64,000 nucleotides of DNA from assembly GCF_000620145.1 (NCBI RefSeq), contig NZ_KK211081.1, positions 186,001-250,000 of the forward strand. The letters are read 5' to 3'. Every line of letters starts with the position of its first letter. Within the stretch, counting starts at the first letter, position 1. The notes below the pieces were generated by a model. The model had not been told where the DNA came from and did not search any database. It worked only from the letters and a program-made list of their open reading frames with translations. Source of the stretch: Deefgea rivuli DSM 18356 (lineage in GTDB: Bacteria; Pseudomonadota; Gammaproteobacteria; Burkholderiales; Chitinibacteraceae). The translations under genes were made by a program, and so were the position numbers. Positions 9,543-61,786 of the stretch are shown in pieces.

Positions 9543-9638
9543 GTTTGCTTTACCTCAAGACAAGCCGACTACGGCTATTGGTTATTCGAATTTATCTTGC
9601 AATTATCCCACAACTCTTTTAGTTTCACATTCATGAAT

Positions 9639-11816
<2,178 letters not shown>

Positions 11817-11919: not shown

Positions 11920-12816
11920 TCACCAAACGTGTGACAGCACTAACGAAATTTCTTTTGTTTCACTCGAACCTTCAGCCGTGCTGATCGGCCACTCGCCCAC
12001 CACGCGCAGGCTATTGCGCCCTGGTAAACGGAAATTAACTGCCGCACCCGCAGTCCAATTATTCATGCCATCGTTATCCGAACGCACGCCACGCGTCACC
12101 GCGCCGCCGTATTGATATTCCAAAGTCGCCGCCAGCCATGCTTCAGGGATAAAGCTATAGCTCGCCATCGCCTTCATGCTGTAACTATTGTCTTGTTGAA
12201 ACGTCCCGGTTCGATAATCGGTATTATCCGAAAACCAATTCATACTGGCGACACCTTCAAGCACCCACTGCTGCTGCGTCCACCCGAGCTGGCACGACGG
12301 AATCACCATCCAGCGATTACTCGTCAAATTCACCGATTGATTTTTCACATACGACGCCGTAGGCACGGCGACTTGCACAGTGCAAGCACTACTCAAACCA
12401 TTCCGGTCATATTCTTTGAGCGCATCCCGACTGAGCGCCGGCACACGGTAGACGCCAATTCCCAAGCCGATCATCACATCGCCAACCCCATCATCTTGTG
12501 CCGATGGACGGCGGCTATTTTCAAACGACTGCTCCACATTCACATACGGCAGCTGCACTGCGGCGTAGGCCAAACGGCCATCCAGCGCAAAATATTGCGC
12601 ATGGCGAATGCTATAGCTTTGTTTATCGATAATTTCGACTTCGCGCGGGCCGCGCGGCGACTCGATATGCTGCTGGCGAAAGCGCAGCGACGTGCGGCTG
12701 GTATCGTCAGCAACCACACCAAACTGGCGAGGATCACTCGCACCAGCGGGCGCAATTAAAACCACCAAACTCAGCAGCAAACCCAAGCCAGTTCGCACCA
12801 TTTTTAATCCATTCAT
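11920..12816 (-). CDS. Outer-membrane beta-barrel protein, transporter-like (MetA/phenol type)
   Basis: Exported protein of 298 residues from the ATG at 12816. Other starts are possible at 12822 and 12801, and the longer frame would need a TTG. It has a signal peptide (TGLGLLLSLVVLIAPAGA) and a body of alternating amphipathic strands ending in SLVLSHVW, with a C-terminal aromatic residue as in outer-membrane barrels. Phrases such as YAAVQLPYVN, GVGDVMIGLGIGVYR and VVGEWPIS resemble the transporter family first seen in meta-pathway phenol degradation loci, but this is a weak match and no substrate can be inferred. It is a single gene convergent to thiC and shares its terminator. Confidence 0.6.
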   Translation of the reverse strand: MNGLKMVRTGLGLLLSLVVLIAPAGASDPRQFGVVADDTSRTSLRFRQQHIESPRGPREVEIIDKQSYSIRHAQYFALDGRLAYAAVQLPYVNVEQSFENSRRPSAQDDGVGDVMIGLGIGVYRVPALSRDALKEYDRNGLSSACTVQVAVPTASYVKNQSVNLTSNRWMVIPSCQLGWTQQQWVLEGVASMNWFSDNTDYRTGTFQQDNSYSMKAMASYSFIPEAWLAATLEYQYGGAVTRGVRSDNDGMNNWTAGAAVNFRLPGRNSLRVVGEWPISTAEGSSETKEISLVLSHVW

Positions 12817-33247: not shown

Positions 33248-33322
33248 TGGCGTTCCCACGGGGAATCGAACCCCGGCCGCCGCCGTGAAAGGGCAGTGTT
33301 CTAACCGCTAAACTATGGGAAC
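33248..33322 (-). tRNA. tRNA-Glu (TTC), first-listed copy
   Basis: A full cloverleaf is readable: acceptor GTTCCCA/TGGGAAC, anticodon loop CCTTTCACG with TTC, T-loop TTCGATT, encoded CCA. It differs from the other tRNA-Glu at 33504 in the acceptor stem and D-arm. Confidence 0.95.
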
Positions 33323-33387
33323 TTTGGTCTACTGAAGATGACTGATAAAATCAAAAATCTAAAGAGATGTACTACTTAAGTAAGAAG

Positions 33388-33464
33388 TGGTGCGCCCGGA
33401 GCGATTCGAACGCCCGACCCTCTGGTTCGTAGCCAGATACTCTATCCAACTGAGCTACGGGCGC
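33388..33464 (-). tRNA. tRNA-Arg (ACG), copy 1
   Basis: Acceptor GCGCCCG/CGGGCGC, anticodon loop CTACGAA with ACG (the first base is expected to be edited to inosine), T-loop TTCGAAT, encoded CCA. It is identical to the copy at 33602. Confidence 0.95.
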
Positions 33465-33503
33465 ACTGTACTTGCAAACTTTAAAACTTACCAACTCGAC
33501 AGT

Positions 33504-33579
33504 TGGCGTCTCCACGGGGATTCGAACCCCGGTCGCCGCCGTGAAAGGGCAGTGTCCTAGGCCTCTAGACGATGGAGAC
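33504..33579 (-). tRNA. tRNA-Glu (TTC), second copy
   Basis: Acceptor GTCTCCA/TGGAGAC, D-arm TCTAGAGGCCTAGGA, anticodon TTC in the same loop as the other copy, encoded CCA. Confidence 0.95.
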
Positions 33580-33601
33580 TCTGTAAAACGCTTTATTTGT
33601 A

Positions 33602-33678
33602 TGGTGCGCCCGGAGCGATTCGAACGCCCGACCCTCTGGTTCGTAGCCAGATACTCTATCCAACTGAGCTACGGGCGC
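33602..33678 (-). tRNA. tRNA-Arg (ACG), copy 2
   Basis: Identical in sequence to the tRNA-Arg at 33388, including the encoded CCA. The Glu-Arg pair is tandemly duplicated. Confidence 0.95.
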
Positions 33679-33696
33679 ATCTTACAAAAAAGTTCC

Positions 33697-33788
33697 TGGC
33701 GGAGACGGAGGGATTCGAACCCTCGATACAGATTACTCCGTATGTCGCCTTAGCAGGGCGGTGATTTCAGCCACTCATCCACATCTCC
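33697..33788 (-). tRNA. tRNA-Ser (GCT)
   Basis: 92-base class II tRNA with a long variable arm. Acceptor GGAGATG pairs with CGTCTCC (one wobble), the anticodon loop CTGCTAA carries GCT, and CCA is encoded. It is first in the operon, just downstream of a consensus promoter. Confidence 0.95.
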
Positions 33789-42954: not shown

Positions 42955-43848
42955 CTAGCAAACCACCCGATTACGCCCCTGGTCTTTCGCCAAATAGAGC
43001 GCTTTATCCGCAGCAATCAGTAAATTCATCTGAGCGCTGCGATGATCTGGGCTGGAAGTGGCGACCCCAATACTCACCGTTACGTACGGCACCACCATGC
43101 TGTGCAGATGCGGAATTTGTAGCGCTTCAAGACTCGCGCGAATCCGCTCGGCGATTTGCAAGGCCAGCTCCTGATCGGCATTCTCAAGCACGCAGCAAAA
43201 CTCCTCACCGCCATAACGCGCAGCCATATCGGTAACCGAGCGCAAAGACGATTGAATCACCCCCGCCACACGCTGCAAACACACATCGCCAGCAATATGC
43301 CCGTATAAATCATTGTAAGGCTTGAATGAATCGACATCGATCAGCAACACCGACAGAGGCTGATCTAAGCGCTGCGCTTTGTCTTGCACGCTCTCGAGAT
43401 GCTCGAATAAGCGCCGCCGATTAGCCAAACCCGTTAACGCATCGGTTTGCGATAAAACGCGCAACAAATCTTTGGTGCGCTTAAGCTCCAAGTGATTGTG
43501 TACGCGGGCGCGTACAATCGACGCATTAAATGGCTTGATAATATAATCCACCGCACCGGCTTCTAGGCCGCGTGTTTCCTCAACGGGTGTCGATAAGGAC
43601 GTAATAAAAATAATCGGAATATCCCGCGTTTCGGCTTTGGCTTTTAAAATCTCACACAGCTGAAAACCATCCATATCGGGCATCATAATATCGAGCAAAA
43701 TCAGCTCAGGAATATGCAGCGCGATTTGCGCCAAGGCTTGCTCGGCACTGAGCGCAAAATGCACATCATGCTCATCACCCAGCACTTCGCCCAGCGTTTC
43801 GATATTATTCATTTGGTCGTCGACGACCAAAACATAGCGATCAGCCAT
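42955..43848 (-). CDS. Response regulator diguanylate cyclase (REC-GGDEF)
   Basis: 297-residue cytoplasmic protein. The receiver domain covers about residues 5-120 with the acceptor Asp53 in LILLDIMMP. The GGDEF domain covers about 130-297 with DALTGLANRR, DVDSFKPYND and an intact active site GGEEF at 213-217. It makes c-di-GMP from GTP, presumably when the receiver is phosphorylated. The inhibitory I-site, which would read RxxD at 204-207, reads SVTD and is not canonical. AAGGAG lies seven bases before the ATG at 43848. The gene overlaps the TPR kinase gene by eight bases and is the last in its operon. Confidence 0.93.
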   Translation of the reverse strand: MADRYVLVVDDQMNNIETLGEVLGDEHDVHFALSAEQALAQIALHIPELILLDIMMPDMDGFQLCEILKAKAETRDIPIIFITSLSTPVEETRGLEAGAVDYIIKPFNASIVRARVHNHLELKRTKDLLRVLSQTDALTGLANRRRLFEHLESVQDKAQRLDQPLSVLLIDVDSFKPYNDLYGHIAGDVCLQRVAGVIQSSLRSVTDMAARYGGEEFCCVLENADQELALQIAERIRASLEALQIPHLHSMVVPYVTVSIGVATSSPDHRSAQMNLLIAADKALYLAKDQGRNRVVC

Positions 43849-46807
43849 GCTCAGCTCCTTCGGCAACAACCGGAATACGTTGGTTTAGCGCCCTCAAGGC
43901 CGTGGGATAATCCAGCGCATCCAAAGCCGCCACCACATCATTGAGCTGATTTTTATGCGTCTCTGGTAAATCCTGCAGTAGCAGTGTTAACAATTTTTTT
44001 GCACGTAAACTATTACTTTGCAATGCGGCTTGCAAATTCAAAATCGCAGGCCAGCTAGCCAAAGGTAATAGACCTTCGGCGTGTGCCAAAACGGGCACAG
44101 GGCTTTCCATCTTCACCAAGGGCAGAATAAATTTCTGGGCGCGATGCCAAGCGCCTTCTAATTCAGAAAAATCAGGTAATACTTCGGTCGCTTCTTTTTG
44201 CGCAGCGAACAGTGCTTGCTCTAAATCGCTGGCCGCCGTGTAAAAATCCATCAAGCCTAAAGTCCCAGAAACCCCGCGCATCGCATGCACTTGTGCGATG
44301 TATTCATTCAGTTTCTCCCGCCGTTTGCTTTGCGCCAATTCGTTAAAAAAGTTTTGATTTTCAGTAAAAAAATGATTGAGCCAACGCTGATAACGCTGCA
44401 AATTGCCATTCAGGCGATCCAATGCCTCGTCCACTGCAACGCCCCAATCGGCTAACTTCGCAATCCAGGTTTTTTCAGCACTGGATGGCAAGTTAGGTTT
44501 AGTTTGTCGCCCCTGCAATGCGCTCAATACCGGCATCACAGGCAAATCAATCGATCGCGCCAATTGATAACGAATCGCATGAGCCAAAGCCGTATGCAAA
44601 CCGCGTACGGAAACGGGTTTGGTTAAATAATCATTCATTCCTGCAGCAATCCCTTCCTGCCTTTCTTTTTCTGTCGCGTTCGCGGTTAAAGCAATGATAT
44701 AAACCTCAGCGTCTTGAACTCGGAACTGCTCAGTTCCACCCGCGCGAATCAATCTCGTGGCAGCCATGCCATCCATAATCGGCATACGCCAATCCATGAG
44801 TACCACATCAAACGGCTCTCGCGCTAATGCCGCGATGGCTTCCAAGCCATTTTCAACGATATGTAGCGATAAATGCATCTCTTCAAGCAGTGCGCCCACA
44901 ATTAACTGATTGGTTTGAATGTCTTCCGCATAGAGCACGCGGATTTGATGCGTTAAATTTTGCATCGGGAGCTCATTTTTACTGATGTCAACGGGTACTT
45001 CAGCGACAGGCAATGGAATTTCTACACGGAAATGGCTCCCCTCACCGGGCGCGCTGGTTACCCCCAAAGAGCCCTGCATCAATTCAATCAAACCACGACA
45101 AATTGATAAACCCAAACCCGTACCGCCGTATTTTCGCGTTGTCGAGGTATCGGCTTGCTCAAATTTTTGAAATAGCCGCCCCAGAGTTAGATCATCCATA
45201 CCAATACCGGTATCGCTAATTAAAATTTTGACTTGCTCATTATCCCGATAAGCCGTAATCGTCACACAGCCTTGCTCGGTAAACTTGATCGCATTACCAA
45301 TTAAATTAAATAGAATTTGTCGAATTCGGGTTGGATCACCCAAACAGCCCGTTGGGGAAAAATGATTTAATTTCAGCACAAAAGAAATGCCTTTTTCCTC
45401 GGCGCGTACAGCAAAAAAATCAACGACTTGATGCAGTAGTTTGAGTAAATCAAATGGAATAGACTCAATCGATAATTTACCAGCCTCAATTTTCGACGCA
45501 TCTAAAATATCATTAATAATATCGAGTAGTAATTCGGCATTTTCCAAACCCATGCGTACTTGCGAGCGAGTGGCTGGACGCAATTCTTTTTGTCCACTGG
45601 CAAGGCGCAACATGCCAATCACCCCCGATAAAGGGGTGCGAATTTCGTGGCTAATTAAAGCCAGAAAATCACTTTTAGCTTGGTTAATCGCAATGAGCGT
45701 ATTTTTTTCGGCTAAATGTTCAGCTTGCTGGCGAATACTATCATCGAGAATATTCTGCTTTTGCTGTTCGGCTTTAAGTAATTTAAGCCGCATTTCCATC
45801 CGTGAAATTTTACGCATCGTGCTGCTTTCAATTTGCGTGAAAGTGCGCTCTTTGGCGAGTTGAATCGATAGCTCGGTATGCCGCTCATACAAAGACAGCG
45901 CCAATTCAAACTGCCCTAATTGCTCATAGACTGCCGATTGAATTTTGCAGGCTTTCATTTCCTGATGCTGCGAACCACCTTGACGCGCCAAATCTAATGC
46001 ATGCTGCGACTCAATCAATGCCGATTGCATCTTGCCTTGCAATAAGGCGACTTCTGCCAAACCCAACTGCGCCATCGCAATCGACCAAGAATGATGATTT
46101 CGTTGCGATAGCGTTAAGGTTTGCACAAAACATTGTTTCGCTTCTGGATACTGGCCCAGCCCAATATAAGCAAAGCCAGAATGCATAATGGCCTCGCTCA
46201 TCACACCAGCATCATTAGTGCGCGAATATAAAGCGCGGCAAGCAGCGAGATGCTCTAAAGCCAATTCATTTTTGCCCAAAAGCTGGTAATCACTGCCCAG
46301 CCATAAATTCAACATCATTAATAACTGCGGATCATCTAATTCCTGCACGTATTCATAAGCAATCTGATGATGACGCAATGATTCATCGACCATGCCAAAA
46401 TACAAATACACTCCACCGATCCCGACATAGGCTTTGATGTAATGCACAATCGAGTGCTGATCCAGCGCTAACTCTAAACAATGCCCCCAAGTGCTTAAAG
46501 CCGCATTCAAATCGCCCAAGGTATAGCAGGCCTTACCTAAGCACTCATGAATATCCAGCAATAAGTTAACCAGATTTAATTGACTAGCCGCCGTTTGAGC
46601 CAGCTCTAAAGTGTGCCGTGCGGCAATAAAATCGCCGGTTTTCTCAAATGCTTCCCCCAGCAAAAACAAAGCCTGCGCCAAAATTACTTCATTATTTTCA
46701 TCTCGAGCTTGCGCCACCAAACGCTCAGCCAATTGCAAAGCCTGATGAAAATTATGCCGACGATAATGGGCCTGCTGAGCCAGCAAGCTCTCTAAACTTT
46801 CAGACAC
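43841..46807 (-). CDS. TPR hybrid sensor kinase with receiver and HPt domains
   Basis: 988-residue cytoplasmic protein. Residues 1-310 are at least seven TPR-like helical repeats, a coiled coil follows (315-375), then HisKA with His387 in ISHEIRTPLSG. The ATPase domain has NAIKF (about 505), DTGIGM (532) and GTGLGL (562). The receiver covers about 622-740 with Asp672 in LMDWRMP. The HPt domain near the C-terminus has His841 in QVHAMRGVSG. The domains form a complete internal phosphorelay (His-Asp-His), whose likely receiver is the adjoining REC-GGDEF protein. It overlaps the genes on both sides by eight bases. The signal is not known; the TPR array suggests a protein or peptide partner. Confidence 0.93.
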   Translation of the reverse strand: MSESLESLLAQQAHYRRHNFHQALQLAERLVAQARDENNEVILAQALFLLGEAFEKTGDFIAARHTLELAQTAASQLNLVNLLLDIHECLGKACYTLGDLNAALSTWGHCLELALDQHSIVHYIKAYVGIGGVYLYFGMVDESLRHHQIAYEYVQELDDPQLLMMLNLWLGSDYQLLGKNELALEHLAACRALYSRTNDAGVMSEAIMHSGFAYIGLGQYPEAKQCFVQTLTLSQRNHHSWSIAMAQLGLAEVALLQGKMQSALIESQHALDLARQGGSQHQEMKACKIQSAVYEQLGQFELALSLYERHTELSIQLAKERTFTQIESSTMRKISRMEMRLKLLKAEQQKQNILDDSIRQQAEHLAEKNTLIAINQAKSDFLALISHEIRTPLSGVIGMLRLASGQKELRPATRSQVRMGLENAELLLDIINDILDASKIEAGKLSIESIPFDLLKLLHQVVDFFAVRAEEKGISFVLKLNHFSPTGCLGDPTRIRQILFNLIGNAIKFTEQGCVTITAYRDNEQVKILISDTGIGMDDLTLGRLFQKFEQADTSTTRKYGGTGLGLSICRGLIELMQGSLGVTSAPGEGSHFRVEIPLPVAEVPVDISKNELPMQNLTHQIRVLYAEDIQTNQLIVGALLEEMHLSLHIVENGLEAIAALAREPFDVVLMDWRMPIMDGMAATRLIRAGGTEQFRVQDAEVYIIALTANATEKERQEGIAAGMNDYLTKPVSVRGLHTALAHAIRYQLARSIDLPVMPVLSALQGRQTKPNLPSSAEKTWIAKLADWGVAVDEALDRLNGNLQRYQRWLNHFFTENQNFFNELAQSKRREKLNEYIAQVHAMRGVSGTLGLMDFYTAASDLEQALFAAQKEATEVLPDFSELEGAWHRAQKFILPLVKMESPVPVLAHAEGLLPLASWPAILNLQAALQSNSLRAKKLLTLLLQDLPETHKNQLNDVVAALDALDYPTALRALNQRIPVVAEGAEHG

Positions 46808-48272
46808 TATCGAGTTCCTTTTTCAGCAATACATCCACTTGCTTGAGCATCGCTACGCTAGCTAATTGCAATTTCACTTTCGCCGTCACTTTTTCAATGC
46901 CATAACGCGCCCACGGTTGTCGCTCAATGGCATTGGCGAGTCGGGTAGAAAAATCCATCAAAATAGATTGCGCTTCAGCGGGATAAATCACATAGCGATT
47001 AGGCGGAATAAAAACCCATAAATCATTTAAGGTGCAATAGTCATTTAATAATGCGGCGATTCTTTGTTCAATGACCGGTTCAACATGGGTACTCATCGTC
47101 AGCTCAATCACCCGGTCGGTCACCTCTGAACATTCACAGCGTAGCCGAAACTGCCGCAAATGCTGCAAAGAAACTCCGGGCATAACCCAACCAGCCAAAC
47201 GCTCAAATTTCAAATGCGTACGAACTAGCATTGCACGTGCTTTTTCCAGTCGATTCAAATTCAGCTTATAGCCTTTCGCTCCGAGTTCACGTGCCAAATG
47301 CTGAATCGCTTGATGCTCATAAATTCGCAGTACCAATAATGCAGAGCGCTGATCGCCTCTTTCTTTGTGTGCCAAATACAATAAATAATTTAGATTTTCT
47401 TCCAGATCACCAATATTAGTAGACTTTAAAATTTCATGAGCACGCTCTAATAATAAAAATGCCTCACCGATTCTATTATTTTTTTCCAGAAATTCACCGT
47501 AGGCAACCACAGTAATACAATACGCCCAAGCTAATTTATAACTCCCTGCAATCGCCAATCCACTTTCGTAAAAAACAACGGCTAATTCTGTTTGATTTAG
47601 CTTCCAATAACATTCTGCGTACCCATTGCAAATCTGAACGAGCCAAGTCATATCACCATGTGCCAATGCATGCGGCTCAACCCGTGATAACAGGGCGATT
47701 GCGGCATCATACTTCTGGGCATTGAGTAAACTATCCATCAAAAAAATACCGCTTTTTGCAATCAATTTTTTATTATTAATTGATTCTGCTAATTTAAGCC
47801 CATTTTTCATCAATAAGTCAGCAGTGCTATACTGCCCAACTTGATAGTAAACCAAAGACACATTGAGATAGGCTTCTACGCCATATTCTAACTGAGTTAA
47901 TTCCAGCGCCAATTCAATCGTTTTTACCCACATTTCTACTGCAGGAATAAATTTAGTATTCCGCTCTAAAGCCACTCCCAACCATAACATCGAAAATGCT
48001 CGGTGCTCTAAATCCTCGGCATGCTCAACTAATTTAACACCTTTACTTAAAGCGCTGAGTGCCTTTTCATTTTCACCAAACGCCAATAAAATCCGCCCAT
48101 ACAGCACATATGAAAACCCCAGCAATGGGTGATGCTGCTGCTTGCAAACCTCCAGCAACTCTTTGCATAAAACACGGCTATCACTGCCGGCCTGCCAATA
48201 TGCAGCTTCAGCATGCTCAAACTGTTTCATAATCCAATCCGAGCTATCGTCTACTTTAGATAAATCGCTCAA
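46800..48272 (-). CDS. TPR protein B with a decayed GGDEF-like C-terminal domain
   Basis: 490-residue cytoplasmic protein with no signal peptide. Residues about 15-325 are TPR-like repeats (for example VEAYLNVSLVYYQVGQYSTA and LAVVFYESGLAIAG). A linker (NLNRLEKARAMLVRTHLKFE) leads to a C-terminal domain of about 130 residues. Its pattern (IAALLNDYC, YVIYPAE, FSTRLANAIERQPW, VTAKVKLQLASV, VDVLLKKEL) runs like the second half of a GGDEF domain but has PPNRY where GG(D/E)EF should be. That relation is my inference. It is a paralogue of the next upstream gene, overlaps that gene by 17 bases and overlaps the TPR kinase by eight. Confidence 0.75.
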   Translation of the reverse strand: MSDLSKVDDSSDWIMKQFEHAEAAYWQAGSDSRVLCKELLEVCKQQHHPLLGFSYVLYGRILLAFGENEKALSALSKGVKLVEHAEDLEHRAFSMLWLGVALERNTKFIPAVEMWVKTIELALELTQLEYGVEAYLNVSLVYYQVGQYSTADLLMKNGLKLAESINNKKLIAKSGIFLMDSLLNAQKYDAAIALLSRVEPHALAHGDMTWLVQICNGYAECYWKLNQTELAVVFYESGLAIAGSYKLAWAYCITVVAYGEFLEKNNRIGEAFLLLERAHEILKSTNIGDLEENLNYLLYLAHKERGDQRSALLVLRIYEHQAIQHLARELGAKGYKLNLNRLEKARAMLVRTHLKFERLAGWVMPGVSLQHLRQFRLRCECSEVTDRVIELTMSTHVEPVIEQRIAALLNDYCTLNDLWVFIPPNRYVIYPAEAQSILMDFSTRLANAIERQPWARYGIEKVTAKVKLQLASVAMLKQVDVLLKKELDSV

Positions 48273-49746
48273 TTTCTTCTATTCCCTCTTCGATTGGCAT
48301 GAGCAAATGCAGAGCCGCTTCGGTAGAAATCAGCTGCACCTTAAACAAAGGCTGCGTCAAACCATGCCAAGCCCATGGGAAGCCCTGAATAATTGCAATC
48401 AATTGCTCAAGCATACTTTCTTGTGCAACAGAGGTAGGCTCCGGAATAATTAAATAAGCTAAGTCAGATAATTTGGTCCATGTTGATTCACCGAGACAAA
48501 ACTCACGCAGCAAGGCACTTATTTTTTGTAAAAAAAGACCTTTAATAACCGCGACATTGAGAAATTGTAAATGAATAATCTGAGTATCAATCGGTGCATT
48601 CATACAACGATGCTGAAACTGCAGATAACGTGAACTCGATTCACCCGGAGAAATCAAATCCAGCATATGCTCAAAATCTTGCCGAGTTTTAATGATTTTT
48701 TTTCTCGAACGATCAAGGCGCGTTAAATTCAGCCCCCTTCCTTTCAAATTTCTTAAAATATTATTCGAAAGAATCGCTTCGGAAAGTGCCTTGTATTTTT
48801 TAATCTCAAGCAAAGCGAGCTTAAATTCGCCTGTGACTTTATAAGCTTTTACCAATAACAAAGCGCTTTGATGCTGCAAATAACCATAATCAAAATAATT
48901 AACGCCTTCTTCGGCGGCAAGCAGGCATTCAATAGCTTCGACATAGCGCTGCTGATTGATTAAAAAACTACCATAATTAACCAACGTCAGCGCTTTAGCC
49001 CACAAAGCATGATTAAACTCGGCAAGCGCCAGCATCGATTCGAAGTACAGTTCAGCCAAATCATTTTTTCCGAGCGCCGCGTAAGAAATAGCAATACTTT
49101 TCCCCGCCTCTACGACCCAAGTCATATCCCCATATTGCAAAGCACTCGCTTCTATCTGATGCAACAAATACAGCGCATTTTCGTATTCGCCAATGTCATT
49201 CAAATTATTAGCCAGAAAAATTCCGCTTTTAGTAATTTGCTTATGATCATTCAACAAAATAGCTAATCGATAGCCAATAATTAATATTTCTCTTGCTGCA
49301 TCATTCTGGCCTGCAAAATAATAAATCTGACTAATATTGACATACGCTTCGATGGCGATGCTAATTTGTGAAAATTCCAAAGCCAATTCAACCGAATGCG
49401 TGAAATCTTCCACCGCAACAACATGCCGTTTTAAATTAAGATTACATAAGCCACGCCATAAATAAGCTTCAGCCTTTAATTCAAGTGCTGATGACTCACG
49501 TATTTTTTTTAATGCCTGAGAAATAGAATAAAATGCCGCATGGTATTGCCCTTTGCCCCATAACATTTTGCTATGTATTAAATACATTCTAGCCATCATC
49601 GCAGTAGAGATTTTCAATTGCTTACAACGAGCCAACAGCAGACCGCTAGCCAAATGAGCTTGGTCAATATTGAGCAAAAACAGCTGCTCTAAGCGCTGAA
49701 ATAAGGCCGGTAATTGCTCGCTACTGGCAGATGAAAAATCCTGCAA
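48256..49746 (-). CDS. TPR protein A, paralogue of B, TTG start
   Basis: 496-residue cytoplasmic protein. The start is taken as TTG at 49746 because AAGGAG lies six bases upstream; the frame is open 16 codons further to another TTG with no ribosome site. TPR-like repeats fill about residues 10-320 (for example IAIEAYVNISQIYYFAGQND, TLVNYGSFLINQQRYVEA). The C-terminal 130 residues follow the same plan as protein B (KISALLREFC, LAYLIIPEP, LEQLIAIIQGFPWAWHGL) and also lack a GGDEF motif (KLSDLAY in its place). It is the first gene of the four-gene overlapping unit. The gap to the membrane kinase upstream is 181 bases. Confidence 0.72.
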   Translation of the reverse strand: MQDFSSASSEQLPALFQRLEQLFLLNIDQAHLASGLLLARCKQLKISTAMMARMYLIHSKMLWGKGQYHAAFYSISQALKKIRESSALELKAEAYLWRGLCNLNLKRHVVAVEDFTHSVELALEFSQISIAIEAYVNISQIYYFAGQNDAAREILIIGYRLAILLNDHKQITKSGIFLANNLNDIGEYENALYLLHQIEASALQYGDMTWVVEAGKSIAISYAALGKNDLAELYFESMLALAEFNHALWAKALTLVNYGSFLINQQRYVEAIECLLAAEEGVNYFDYGYLQHQSALLLVKAYKVTGEFKLALLEIKKYKALSEAILSNNILRNLKGRGLNLTRLDRSRKKIIKTRQDFEHMLDLISPGESSSRYLQFQHRCMNAPIDTQIIHLQFLNVAVIKGLFLQKISALLREFCLGESTWTKLSDLAYLIIPEPTSVAQESMLEQLIAIIQGFPWAWHGLTQPLFKVQLISTEAALHLLMPIEEGIEEIERFI

Positions 49747-49927
49747 GCCTCTCTCCTTAACGATGCTGAATATAAGTAGATTAGTTGCTGGCAAGTCAAA
49801 TTGCGAGAAATGTCACCGACGATCCGAGCCAGTCGGTGATGAGGATGCGGAGCAAAGAAGTGAGAAAACGTAGACCAATGGGTATTTAACTGTAGCGCTT
49901 TGCAATCGATGCTTAGATTGAAATACC

Positions 49928-51664
49928 CTATGAATATAGTGCAAGTGTCGCCGTCAATATTTCTGGCCGAATTGGTTTGGTCAAAAAGCAATCCATACCC
50001 GCAGCCATACACGCATCACGATCTCGATCCAGTGCATTGGCGGTGAGTGCAATAATCGGTAAGCGCGATAGACCCAGCTGCGATTCGATACTTCTGATTT
50101 TTTGGGTGGCAATCAGGCCATCCATGATGGGCATTTGCATATCCATCAAAATGACATCAAAACTATGCTGCTGATACATTGCCAAAGCAATTTCGCCATT
50201 TTCAGCAGCCAGCACTTGATGACCTAATTTCTCAAGCAAACGGAGTGCCACTAAACGATTGATTGAATTATCTTCAGCAAGCAGAATTTTTAGTGTTTTA
50301 GCCTCCAGAGGTTCTTTTATTTCTTCTGGATCAAAAATATAAGAATTATTGAGCGTAAGTTCAAAAGAAAAAATACTCCCCCCAGTCGGGTTAGCAGCAA
50401 CAGAAATAGAACTACCCAAAGCATGAGCCAAGTGCTGCGAAATCGTTAATCCTAATCCTGTACCACCATATTGCCGAGTTGACGAACCATCAACCTGAAT
50501 AAAAGCATCAAAAACATGGGGCATTTTCTCACTACGAATCCCAATACCAGAGTCAATTACGGCGAAATGAATACGCCAACCGACTCCATCTTGTTGCGTA
50601 GAAACTTTCAGCGTAACGCCGCCCTGCTGCGTAAACTTAATGGCATTACCCAATAAATTAACCAAAATTTGCCGAAAACGTAATGGATCACTTTCAACGG
50701 GACCAGGCACTTGCCCTTCCCACAGCAGATTCAGAAACAAACCTTTACTTTGCGCGCTAACTTGAAACATTCGGACAATGCCGTCTAATACCGATTTTAA
50801 ATCAAATGCTTTAATATCTAATTGTAAATAACCTGCTTCAATTTTAGAAACATCCAATACATCATTAATCAGCGACAAAAGTAAATCAGAGGATGAACGA
50901 ATGATTTCAACTTCTTCATGCTGCTGAACCGTTAACTCGCTCTGCGCCAATAAATTAGCCATCCCAACGATGCCATTCATTGGTGTACGAATTTCGTGGC
51001 TCACATTAGCAATAAATTCAGTTTTGGCCTGACTTGCTGCTTCGGCGGCATTACGTGCCGCTAATAATTGCTCGGCTAAATTAGCCTGTTTTTGCTCTAA
51101 AAGAATGCTATCGACTAAAGTCTCATTAAATAATTTGGCGCTAGTTAAAATAACAAGCAGATAAATCACACTTAATAAGCCCAAAAATAAATCAACACGC
51201 GTCTGGCTGATGCAGGCGACCAATAAAATAGGCAATAGCATTGCAATCGCGAAAATACGCATCGCCGATAACATTGAACCCAAGATTGGCACGGCACCCG
51301 CGACCATGCCAGCCAAAATAAATGCAGTGAGTAATTTTAGGGATTCAGAGGAAGACAGCATCAGCAAAAAGCCGCCCAGCCCCCAGATCAGGCCGGAGAG
51401 GCCAACGCCAAAATTGACGCGCTGACGCCAAACAGCCGCGCTTTGATTCTGAGCTTGCCGATAACTGTATGCACAAGCTAAACGATACAGCGCAACACCA
51501 CAGGCCAGCAGCCACCAACTCAGTAGCGGCCACCATTCATGCGCGCCGCTGTGTACGACCACCAAAATGCACGCCGTCAGCAGGCAAATATACTGCCCCG
51601 CCGCAGAGTTGCGGTAGATCAGCTCAGTGGTTCGGCTTAGGACGACAGGATCGGTGGCATTCAT
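49928..51664 (-). CDS. Membrane hybrid sensor histidine kinase
   Basis: 578-residue protein. The N-terminal 185 residues hold five or six membrane helices (about 23-41, 48-66, 86-104, 110-130, 134-152, 158-176) with almost no periplasmic part, so the sensor reads the membrane or something in it. I do not recognise this module by name. A short coiled coil leads to HisKA with His223 in [11 protein letters not shown], ATPase motifs NAIKF (344), DSGIGI (371) and GTGLGL (402), and a receiver at about 458-575 with Asp508 in LMDMQMP. It lies just upstream of the TPR signalling unit on the same strand and may feed it. Confidence 0.92.
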
Positions 51665-51710: not shown

Positions 51711-52490
51711 TTATTGATCGCTCGGCAGAATCGCCACTTCGTCTTTATTATCAGCAAGAATATTCAACGTCACGCGGCGGTTTTTTGCTCGACCTTGGGC
51801 GGCATCATTGGTGTCCATTGGGCGAAACTGGCCAAAGCCAATCGCCGCCATGCGCTGCGGCGCGACGCCAGCTTGCTCAAACAAGCGCACCACACTGGCC
51901 GCTCGCGCCGCAGACAACTCCCAATTACTCGGAAATTGCCCAGCGCGGATCGGTTGATTATCGGTATGGCCTTCAACCTGAATCAGGTTATCGCTATTTT
52001 TCACTAAGTTGGCGACTGCCAATAGCGCTTCTTCTGAGCTGACTTGTAAATCGGCACGACCCGTATCAAATAAAATAGAGTCGCTAATTTCAACCGCGAT
52101 CCCACGTTTCGATTGAGTGACCTTCACTTTACCTTGGTCGATCAGATTACCCAGCGATTGACGCAACTCTCCCGCCATACCGCGCATTTTCTGTGCTTGT
52201 TCTTCTAATTTCGGATTGTTCGGCAAGGCGCTTGGGACTGGAATATCAATAATTTTAGGCGGAGCGCCTTTGATCACTTGATTATCCAACTGGACTTTCG
52301 GTGCTGAAGTTTGTGGTTGCTGAAAGGCATCGACCAGTGCATTCGATAGCACTTTGTACTTACCTTCATTCACCGAAGAAATCGCGTACATCACGACAAA
52401 GAACGCAAACAACAAGGTAATAAAGTCGGCATAAGACACCAGCCAGCGCTCGTGATTTTCATGCTCTTCAGGTCGTTGTTTGCGTGCCAT
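51711..52490 (-). CDS. motD: Flagellar stator protein of the MotB/MotD family
   Basis: 259-residue protein with one N-terminal membrane helix (ADFITLLFAFFVVMYAIS). The proton-carrying Asp is in SYADFITLLFAFF. An OmpA-like peptidoglycan-binding domain covers about residues 145-245 (ILFDTGRADL, VEGHTDNQP, LSAARAASVVRLF, GFGQFRP...NRRV). The N-terminal MARKQRPEEHENHERWL and the overall length match MotD, the second stator B subunit of pseudomonads and some betaproteobacteria. MotD is normally encoded directly after its MotA-like partner MotC; none is present here. It follows the S49 peptidase gene by nine bases. Confidence 0.85.
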   Translation of the reverse strand: MARKQRPEEHENHERWLVSYADFITLLFAFFVVMYAISSVNEGKYKVLSNALVDAFQQPQTSAPKVQLDNQVIKGAPPKIIDIPVPSALPNNPKLEEQAQKMRGMAGELRQSLGNLIDQGKVKVTQSKRGIAVEISDSILFDTGRADLQVSSEEALLAVANLVKNSDNLIQVEGHTDNQPIRAGQFPSNWELSAARAASVVRLFEQAGVAPQRMAAIGFGQFRPMDTNDAAQGRAKNRRVTLNILADNKDEVAILPSDQ

Positions 52491-59939: not shown

Positions 59940-60052
59940 TTAATTTCTTCACTGAAATTCAGTCAAACGCTTGATCTGAAATAGGGAAAGACCTGATTAT
60001 CTTGTGTACAAAAGCTTACTAGGATCAAGGGCGGCATGGGTTGTATGTCGTA

Positions 60053-60058
60053 TATAAT
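60053..60058 (+). promoter_or_regulatory. Candidate -10 element for the ABC transporter genes
   Basis: A perfect TATAAT lies 51 bases before the binding-protein start. No good -35 is found 16-18 bases upstream, so an activator may be needed. Confidence 0.4.
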
Positions 60059-60109
60059 ACGCTCCCATTTCTGCCCTTTTTCGTTTCCAAGCTGGAGAGA
60101 CACAATAAA

Positions 60110-60862
60110 ATGACTACAAAAAAACTAGGTCTAATCGCGAGCGTGATTTTTGCTGGGCTCCTGTTCAATACGAATGCCAATGCGGCAAAAGTGTATCAAG
60201 TAGCCACCGATGCAGCCTACGCACCGTTTGAATCACTCAATAACAAAAAAGAAGTAGTCGGCTTTAGTGTGGATATTCTCGAAGCGATTGCCAAAAAAAG
60301 CGGCATGAAAGTCAAATTCATCAATACGCCATGGGAAGGCATTTTCCTCACACTGGCCACTGGTGATCGCGATATGGTGATCTCTTCAGTCACCATCACG
60401 CCAGAACGCAAGCAATCAATGGATTTCTCTGATCCTTACTTTGAAGCCAAGCAACTCATCGCCGTCAGTAAAAATAGCAAAGTCAGCAAATTTGCGGATC
60501 TAAAAACACTGAGAGTCGGCGTGCAAACGGGTACAACTGGCGATGAAGTCGTGCAAAAATTGCAAGGCAAAACCAGCCCAAATATCAAACGCTTTGAATC
60601 TACTCCACTCGCACTCAAAGAACTGGAAAACGGCGGTGTTGATGCCGTAGTGGCTGACAATGGTGTGGTCGTGAACTTCGCGTCCAACAACCCAAATTCC
60701 AAATTAAAAATCATCGATGATGCGACTTTTGCCAAAGAGTATTACGGCATTGCCGTCAAGAAAGGCAATAAAGCAGTCCTCGAACAAATCAATAAAGGCC
60801 TCGCTGCAATTAAAGCCGATGGCACTTACGATAAAATCTATAACAAACATTTCGGTAAATAA
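60110..60862 (+). CDS. Amino-acid ABC transporter periplasmic binding protein
   Basis: 250-residue exported protein of the polar amino-acid binding family (SBP type 3). The signal peptide is MTTKKLGLIASVIFAGLLFN...NANA. The start was moved to 60110 because GGAGAG precedes it and it gives a normal signal peptide. The mature part shows YQVATDAAYAPFE, GFSVDILEAIAKKSG, GDRDMVISSVTITPERKQ and VGVQTGTTGDE, typical of glutamine/arginine-type binding proteins. The exact ligand cannot be read. The permease gene follows after two hairpins. Confidence 0.92.
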   Translation: MTTKKLGLIASVIFAGLLFNTNANAAKVYQVATDAAYAPFESLNNKKEVVGFSVDILEAIAKKSGMKVKFINTPWEGIFLTLATGDRDMVISSVTITPERKQSMDFSDPYFEAKQLIAVSKNSKVSKFADLKTLRVGVQTGTTGDEVVQKLQGKTSPNIKRFESTPLALKELENGGVDAVVADNGVVVNFASNNPNSKLKIIDDATFAKEYYGIAVKKGNKAVLEQINKGLAAIKADGTYDKIYNKHFGK

Positions 60863-60962: not shown

Positions 60963-60988
60963 ACTTGAGCTTTGAAATAGGTATCCGC

Positions 60989-61786
60989 ATGGATTTCATC
61001 ACATTCTGGACGCAAATCCAGCACGCAGTGCCATTGCTCGACAATTTCCAGCTGCAAATTGTCTGGGAATACCGCGAACTATTTATCGACGGCGCCAAAA
61101 TGACGCTGGGCATTACTTTAATCGCCGTCGTCCTGGGGACTTTAATTGGCTTATTTGCCGGAATCGCCCGTCTTGCCGAAGTAAAGCACGGCATCTGGAA
61201 ATACCCCGTTAAATTATTTTTACGTTGGCCAGCCACCGCCTACGTCACATTTTTCCGTGGCACCCCACTATTTGTGCAAATCTTGCTCACCCATTTTGCC
61301 GTGATGCCTTTGCTGGTGCATCCAGACAATGGACTCTTGCTCAGCGGTGAAATGGCCGCCACCTTACGCCAAGACTATGGCGCATTTTTATCTGGTCTAG
61401 TCGCGCTCACGCTCAATGCCGGTGCTTACATTACCGAGATTTTCCGTGCGGGGATTCAGTCGATTGCTAAAGGCCAGTTTGAAGCTTCACGCTCACTCGG
61501 TATGAGCTACGGCCAGACCATGCGCCACGTGATTATTCCACAAGCTTTTCGCCGGATGCTGCCACCACTCGGTAACGAAGCGATTATGCTGGTCAAAGAC
61601 AGCTCGCTGGTTTCGGCTATCGGCTTGGCCGAACTGGCCTATGCCGCACGTACGGTCGCCGGAGCGTATTCGCGCTACTGGGAGCCCTATCTGACCATTT
61701 CATTTATCTATCTGATTATGACTTTAGTGCTCGCTGCTGGTGTCAATCATCTAGAAAAACGCTACCAACAAAGCGGCGGCGTTTAA
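60989..61786 (+). CDS. Amino-acid ABC transporter permease
   Basis: 265-residue inner-membrane permease of the HisM/GlnP type. The ATG at 60989 follows a TAGG site; the TTG-initiated extension is not supported. Membrane segments begin near residue 45. The family motifs TFFRGTPLFVQILL, LTLNAGAYITEIFRAGIQSI, the coupling-helix EASRSLGMSYGQTMRHVIIPQA and NEAIMLVKDSSL are present. It should form a homodimer with a GlnQ-type ATPase, but no ATPase gene follows; the next gene is ugd on the other strand. Confidence 0.92.
   Translation: MDFITFWTQIQHAVPLLDNFQLQIVWEYRELFIDGAKMTLGITLIAVVLGTLIGLFAGIARLAEVKHGIWKYPVKLFLRWPATAYVTFFRGTPLFVQILLTHFAVMPLLVHPDNGLLLSGEMAATLRQDYGAFLSGLVALTLNAGAYITEIFRAGIQSIAKGQFEASRSLGMSYGQTMRHVIIPQAFRRMLPPLGNEAIMLVKDSSLVSAIGLAELAYAARTVAGAYSRYWEPYLTISFIYLIMTLVLAAGVNHLEKRYQQSGGV

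Follow-up and report, generated by a model that had tools for sequence, protein, structure and literature searches.

The closest described system to the locus reported here is RcbAB of Vibrio vulnificus, in which the TPR protein RcbA makes TPR-TPR contacts with the TPR-GGDEF cyclase RcbB and de-represses that cyclase (PMC12282931). The TPR domain of RcbB represses its own cyclase, and RcbA relieves this repression using both of its parts, the C-terminal region being said to have 'no identifiable domains'; RcbA moreover anchors RcbB at the flagellar pole and alters its activity in E. coli too (PMC12282931). In the same paper the gefB operon of V. parahaemolyticus is counted as a homologue of RcbAB, and Deefgea, Chitinibacter, and Chitinilyticum are among the genera given for rcbAB homologues (PMC12282931). 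In the genome of Deefgea rivuli DSM 18356 itself (G000), contig C13 (L055) holds an RcbA-like gene ahead of a TPR-GGDEF gene, a pair that could be what PMC12282931, going by the text available of it, counted for Deefgea. Contigs C3 and C4 (L056, L057) of the same genome hold genes with both TPR and GGDEF, followed by short TPR genes encoding 355 aa.

The window analysed here, a stretch of 64,000 nucleotides from D. rivuli contig NZ_KK211081.1 (positions 186,001 to 250,000), contains five open reading frames in a row on the minus strand at 42955-51664, called HKmem, TPRA, TPRB, HKtpr, and DGC, the last four of which are referred to below as the core. In RcbAB as in the core, a TPR protein whose C-terminal region is structured stands ahead of a TPR output protein, and the output of both is c-di-GMP, this being predicted for the core. 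The core differs in having two proteins of apparent RcbA type, which are fused in Chitinilyticum, and in having its RcbB-type TPR domain joined to an HPt-containing hybrid kinase, while a separate REC protein bears the live GGDEF domain. A partner with about seven TPRs and a structured C-terminal region is found in both, whereas the joining of TPR and GGDEF in one chain, characteristic of RcbB, is not, HKtpr being composed of TPR, kinase, REC, and HPt. For this last reason the core is not called an RcbAB operon here, and because HKtpr and RcbB differ in their output the precedent of RcbB is treated as an analogy. The term 'histidine kinase' has no occurrence in the main text of PMC12282931. 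The original prediction had named no described system as known to have this layout; that still applies to the exact layout, no description of a TPR pair, a TPR hybrid kinase, and a REC-GGDEF protein in this arrangement having been found in the open-licence literature, and it gives way where the related RcbAB is concerned.

Organisation of the locus

The list of open reading frames and Pfam confirm the genes and domain calls made earlier for the five genes, all on one strand (Table 1), and the coordinates agree with the predicted overlaps of 17, 8, and 8 bases for TPRA/TPRB, TPRB/HKtpr, and HKtpr/DGC, respectively. The last of these overlaps requires that DGC begin at the ATG given in the table and not at the TTG of the longest open reading frame, at 43869. 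The longest reading frame of TPRA runs from 49794, and a TTG 16 codons inside it, at 49746, is preceded by AAGGAGAG and stands in the alignment column that is the start in 10 of 13 relatives; this TTG is probably where TPRA begins. Pfam assigns HisKA, HATPase_c, and Response_reg to HKmem, with no HPt match, and a hydrophobic N-terminal region lies ahead of these kinase domains. TPRA and TPRB give nothing but TPR families above the curated cut-offs, HKtpr gives TPR, HisKA, HATPase_c, Response_reg, and Hpt, and DGC gives Response_reg and GGDEF.

Promoter-like sites (22 against 22.9 expected) and terminator-like sites (20 against 16.9 expected) were uninformative as to the limits of the unit, and none of the six matches that the whole window has to Rfam at gathering scores falls within the island. 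Elsewhere in the window, Rfam places a TPP riboswitch, barely over the gathering score, at 9633-9786 and five tRNA genes clustered on the minus strand at 33251-33788; two adjacent open reading frames of equal length (273 aa), at 60041-60862 and 60965-61786, may be tandem duplicates.

Table 1. Features of the locus, in window positions.
Feature	Position	Strand	Basis
HKmem, membrane hybrid kinase with REC, optional neighbour	49928..51664	-	ORF, Pfam
TPRA, probably RcbA-type: TPR array and C-terminal putative degenerate GGDEF	48256..49746	-	ORF, Pfam, tree, start analysis
TPRA, putative degenerate GGDEF domain	48262..48636	-	profile comparison, AlphaFold2 model, Foldseek
TPRB, TPRA paralogue, TTG start, 17-base overlap with TPRA	46800..48272	-	ORF, Pfam, alignment
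TPRB residues 51-337, seven TPR-like helix pairs	47262..48122	-	AlphaFold2 model, own count
TPRB, putative degenerate GGDEF domain, residues 369-489	46806..47168	-	profile comparison, AlphaFold2 model
HKtpr: probably RcbB-type TPR region, linker, HisKA, HATPase_c, REC, HPt; GTG start	43841..46807	-	ORF, Pfam, tree
HKtpr/TPRB overlap, 8 bases		-	ORF coordinates
DGC, REC-GGDEF response regulator, intact GGEEF, ATG at 43848	42955..43848	-	ORF, Pfam
HKtpr His387 codon (SHEIRTP)	45647..45649	-	invariant 13/13
HKtpr receiver Asp672 codon	44792..44794	-	invariant 13/13
HKtpr HPt domain His841 codon	44285..44287	-	invariant 13/13
DGC receiver Asp53 codon	43690..43692	-	invariant 13/13

Conservation and extent of the unit

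Relatives were searched with TPRB against 61 genomes and with the TPR region of HKtpr against 43 genomes of the family, the latter search giving 15 genomes at 264 bits or more and the next match at 106 bits. Comparison of the neighbourhood across these relatives found the order of the core to be constant in the 15 of 43 family genomes that carry it, which take in all seven of Deefgea, all six of Chitinibacter, and both of Chitinilyticum. It is intact in 13 of the 15, as four genes in 11 and in the two Chitinilyticum with TPRA and TPRB fused into a single frame of 965-966 aa. G002 has a frameshift in TPRB close to the C-terminus (L038 8345-9748), and in G036 (L049) the contig ends ahead of any DGC and the kinase frame is broken near 12000, beside a run of 8 G, a break that may be a sequencing slip, decay, or phase variation. 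The frameshifted row (B_L038) was accordingly dropped from the C-terminal sets and from alignments A1 and A2, L049 was left out of A3 and A4 on account of its broken kinase frame and contig end, and L065 (G061), which is in none of the alignments A1-A8, was read separately.

Beyond the family, nothing full-length was found in a sample of the class (369 genomes), where 3 of 369 match at E <= 1e-8, these being the D. rivuli genome itself and two partial TPR matches of 37-39 bits; in a sample of the order (399 genomes), 12 match at E <= 1e-12, every one within the same family. At most four candidates per genome were scored in the class sample and at most three in the order sample, and misses are possible in both. 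Between genomes G004 and G006, dN/dS is 0.040 for TPRA, 0.046 for TPRB, 0.028 for HKtpr, and 0.024 for DGC, and over the last 150 codons 0.060 for TPRA and 0.026 for TPRB, all of these values being rough because synonymous sites are near saturation. Their low level argues against decay of the core genes, and chance is excluded as an explanation of the arrangement by its conservation in 15 genomes together with low dN/dS (0.024-0.046).

The original prediction counted HKmem in a unit of five genes. HKmem adjoins the core in nine of the 15 (Deefgea 3/7, Chitinibacter 6/6, Chitinilyticum 0/2) and is missing beside it in the other six, so that it is optional and the five-gene unit is rejected: the unit is four genes, TPRA, TPRB, HKtpr, and DGC. 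These form one conserved and probably translationally coupled unit. It is very unlikely that the two TPR proteins are merely co-expressed with the kinase and cyclase and make no contact with them, given the gene overlaps, the constant order, the relocation of the block as a whole in Chitinilyticum, and the precedent of RcbAB as described in PMC12282931.

The presence of a membrane kinase next to the core in many of these genomes bears on another alternative, in which HKmem is a sensor that passes phosphate to the HPt domain of HKtpr as the hub of a two-kinase network. The domain content of HKmem, which has HisKA, HATPase_c, and REC with no HPt match, and its adjacency in nine genomes fit this alternative, but the six genomes that have no HKmem beside the core do not, and the four Deefgea gaps hold chance-level matches only, a search for HKmem remnants giving E 7.7 in L037, E 1.6 in L039, and none in L038 and L041. 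The N-terminal region of HKmem, moreover, has matches in 36 of the 43 genomes of the family, and 23 of those 36 are without the core; we regard such a network as improbable.

The core comes after motD in 13 of 15 genomes, a position which, taken with the anchoring of RcbB at the flagellar pole by RcbA (PMC12282931), would suit a role of TPRA and TPRB as spatial scaffolds, fixing kinase and cyclase in place at the pole of the cell or close to the flagellar motor, and not as switches of kinase activity. Both Chitinilyticum cores, however, sit elsewhere as one block, with no motD match in either of the two 19 kb loci, and the effect of RcbA on RcbB activity in E. coli (PMC12282931) also speaks against a purely spatial role, which we consider rather unlikely. 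The motD gene of the window, named by eye, lies at 51711-52490 beside an S49-peptidase-like gene and without an adjoining MotA/MotC-type gene; MotA_ExbB has five matches elsewhere in the genome, away from motD.

Kinship of the TPR regions

TPRA and TPRB share 32% identity across 438 aligned positions, and identity of either to the TPRs of HKtpr is only 23-24%; in the AlphaFold2 model of TPRB we counted seven TPR-like helix pairs. A tree of 51 TPR regions was built from 16 of 27 core A and B rows (fusion halves counted) and 6 of 15 kinases, with hand-picked sets of 6 RcbA-like, 13 TPR-GGDEF, and 10 short TPR proteins. It separates TPRA, TPRB, and the RcbA-like proteins from a second group made up of the TPRs of HKtpr, the TPR-GGDEF proteins, and the short TPR proteins (support 83/90), a split that gives moderate support to TPRA and TPRB carrying RcbA-type TPRs and HKtpr carrying RcbB-type TPRs. 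Three homologous TPR arrays in a row had been predicted, and of this the paralogy of TPRA and TPRB stands on their 32% identity, whereas the origin of all three arrays by one local triplication is disfavoured, borderline at p-AU 0.044.

The C-terminal domains of TPRA and TPRB

TPRA and TPRB had been taken for plain TPR arrays. This reading has to be revised, each of them also ending in a degenerate-GGDEF-like domain, within some 150 C-terminal residues that are conserved beyond the TPRs. The GG[DE]EF motif of active diguanylate cyclases is absent from all 27 core rows of the C-terminal alignment; at the GGDEF position, profile alignments place SDLAY in TPRA, PPNRY in TPRB, and SSDRL or similar in Vibrio RcbA, for which 4 of the 6 records found were used.

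Sequence comparison was made with hhalign against a GGDEF profile of 26 rows, made up of 8 of 45 domains from the D. rivuli genome, 9 of 13 DGCs, and 9 TPR-GGDEFs, the DGC rows L037, L038, L039, and L041 being absent as segments left empty by the motif. The core C-termini gave 86.0% (E 5.1e-6), with 0 of 100 column shuffles as high and a receiver control at 0.2%. This core-only match hangs on the TPR-GGDEF rows, for it falls to 4.0% without them, and the GGDEF homology is weak when judged from the core sequences alone. The RcbA-like C-termini of the family gave 94.3% (84.4% without the TPR-GGDEFs), those of Vibrio and family RcbA together 97.0% (95.8%), and those of Vibrio alone only 58.0% (40.0%). 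The core C-termini were linked to those of Vibrio RcbA at 94.4-94.7% and to the family RcbA-like rows without L062 at only 56.5%, and when core and RcbA rows were combined (36 rows, without L062) they matched the profile without TPR-GGDEFs at 91.2% (E 1e-6), with a score of 45.0 against a shuffle maximum of 15.8. L062 (2279-3829), a Chitinilyticum RcbA-like protein, matches PF00990 at 1.6e-11 over profile positions 4-94 only and is likely an intermediate towards the dead domain, a half-decayed GGDEF.

Against PDB sequences, profile A5 has four matches at E <= 1, namely PA0861 (E 3.8e-5), two entries of the cyclase SadC, and an entry titled 'GGDEF domain protein'. Profile A8, with 29 core and RcbA rows (20 of the 27 core rows among them) and without L062, picks out PA0861 (E 2.4e-5), titled PAS-GGDEF-EAL in the PDB, among nine matches at E <= 10, four of which are unrelated (a designed protein and three separase chains). 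The RcbA-only profile A6 has two matches at E <= 1, PA0861 at 0.013 and the GGDEF protein at 0.85, and the core-only profile (27 rows) has eight at E <= 10, none of them GGDEF. Taken singly, only 2 of 33 domains in A5 match Pfam GGDEF, and the TPRA C-terminal domain of the window has no match in Pfam.

AlphaFold2 predicts one order of elements, alpha-beta-alpha-beta-beta-alpha-beta-alpha, for the C-terminal domains of TPRA and TPRB alike, the TPRB model being made from core sequences alone and the alignment for the TPRA C-terminal model including six RcbA-like rows, one of which is GGDEF-like. The latter model is middling (pLDDT 76, TM about 0.5 in Foldseek). Foldseek gives this model 1103 matches, and among the best 50 of them ranks 1-28 are all taken by GGDEF or cyclase entries, 27 of which say so in their titles, the remaining one being ImcA; the best has E 1.7e-4, and only 2 of the 1103 have E <= 0.001. 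For whole TPRB, the 50 Foldseek matches listed look like TPR or other repeat proteins (LGN, Rap, and similar), with no GGDEF among them. It is through the RcbA-like bridge and the predicted fold, core-only tests being weak or negative, that the C-terminal domain of TPRA and TPRB looks like a degenerate member of the GGDEF superfamily without the catalytic motif, a homology that is supported but not proved. The same comparisons suggest that the C-terminal region of RcbA is a dead GGDEF domain, a designation not found in the available text of PMC12282931, the only paper found with RcbA, RcbB, and GGDEF.

Dead GGDEF domains might act as sensors of c-di-GMP or GTP that give feedback on HKtpr, like other degenerate-GGDEF effectors. 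The introduction of PMC12282931 names degenerate GGDEF domains as c-di-GMP effectors, and PelD with c-di-GMP stands at rank 45 of the best 50 among the 1103 Foldseek matches, but TPRA and TPRB are without the GGDEF motif, their stretch from the first strand to the next helix is shortened, and no I-site was recognised in them by eye; a sensor role is accordingly held to be quite unlikely.

Predicted phosphorelay and cyclase output

The full set of phosphorelay residues claimed for the locus is borne out. His387, Asp672, and His841 of HKtpr and Asp53 of DGC, which correspond to the conserved His, Asp, His, and Asp sites of a multistep phosphorelay, are the same in all 13 aligned orthologues, as is the GGEEF of DGC, which conforms to the GG[DE]EF of an active diguanylate cyclase; L065, read separately, has the same phosphosite and GGEEF motifs. 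Only gene order and overlap tie the HPt domain of HKtpr to this particular REC-GGDEF protein, and the specificity of DGC is a real question because there are 45 GGDEF domain matches across the 3.7 Mb genome. The I-site has the form RxxD, and the arginine ahead of GGEEF in DGC lies one residue farther from the aspartate than this in 13 of 13 rows.

With the PleD / DgcR-type REC-GGDEF response regulators, WspR among them, DGC has in common a phosphorylatable receiver and an intact GGEEF, although its NCBIfam scores are under the curated cut-offs of both PleD and DgcR. HKtpr has the HisKA-HATPase-REC-HPt order of the BarA/TorS/ArcB-type tripartite hybrid kinases by NCBIfam, scoring below the cut-off of every family among the matches listed (25 of 147), and its input is a TPR region, in contrast to the membrane sensor region of kinases of that type.

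Proposed mechanism

Our preferred reading, to which we give a probability of about 0.58, is that in the core a TPR switch of the RcbAB type has been rewired to a His-Asp-His-Asp relay that feeds a separate cyclase. The RcbB-side TPR domain would here be attached to a hybrid histidine kinase rather than directly to a cyclase, and TPRA and TPRB, as RcbA-type proteins of about seven TPRs and a catalytically dead GGDEF, would act as a pair, binding the TPR region of HKtpr via TPR-TPR contacts and setting its autophosphorylation at His387. Phosphate would pass from His387 to Asp672, on to His841 of the HPt domain, and to Asp53 of DGC, whose intact GGEEF domain would dimerise and produce c-di-GMP, the dead GGDEF domains most likely being dimerisation or docking surfaces in the complex. 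From the TPR tree and the RcbAB precedent we infer, by analogy, that TPRA and TPRB act on HKtpr as RcbA does on RcbB and that HKtpr relays to DGC. An action of the kinase-free TPR proteins on the TPRs of HKtpr was already part of the original prediction, and this idea is strengthened by the TPR-TPR binding of RcbA and RcbB described in PMC12282931 and by the fusion of TPRA and TPRB in Chitinilyticum.

A more tentative proposal, which we hold possible rather than probable, goes further in taking RcbA-type proteins as a class of TPR-linked pseudo-cyclases that control partner signalling proteins across the beta- and gammaproteobacteria. Here an obligate pair of them, with dead GGDEF domains under purifying selection, would gate the relay and would directly cap or dimerise with the live REC-GGDEF protein, thereby deciding when it may pair.

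Implications for c-di-GMP signalling

What the analysis suggests as new is the presence of hidden degenerate-GGDEF-like domains and the link of the TPR-kinase-cyclase core to RcbAB. If the C-terminal region of RcbA is a dead GGDEF domain, its part in switching the cyclase can be addressed directly by experiment, as a matter of pseudo-enzyme pairing. To judge from the Deefgea-type operon, a kinase may also be driven by the same TPR module, in which case c-di-GMP signalling may draw on TPR pairs as exchangeable units of control.
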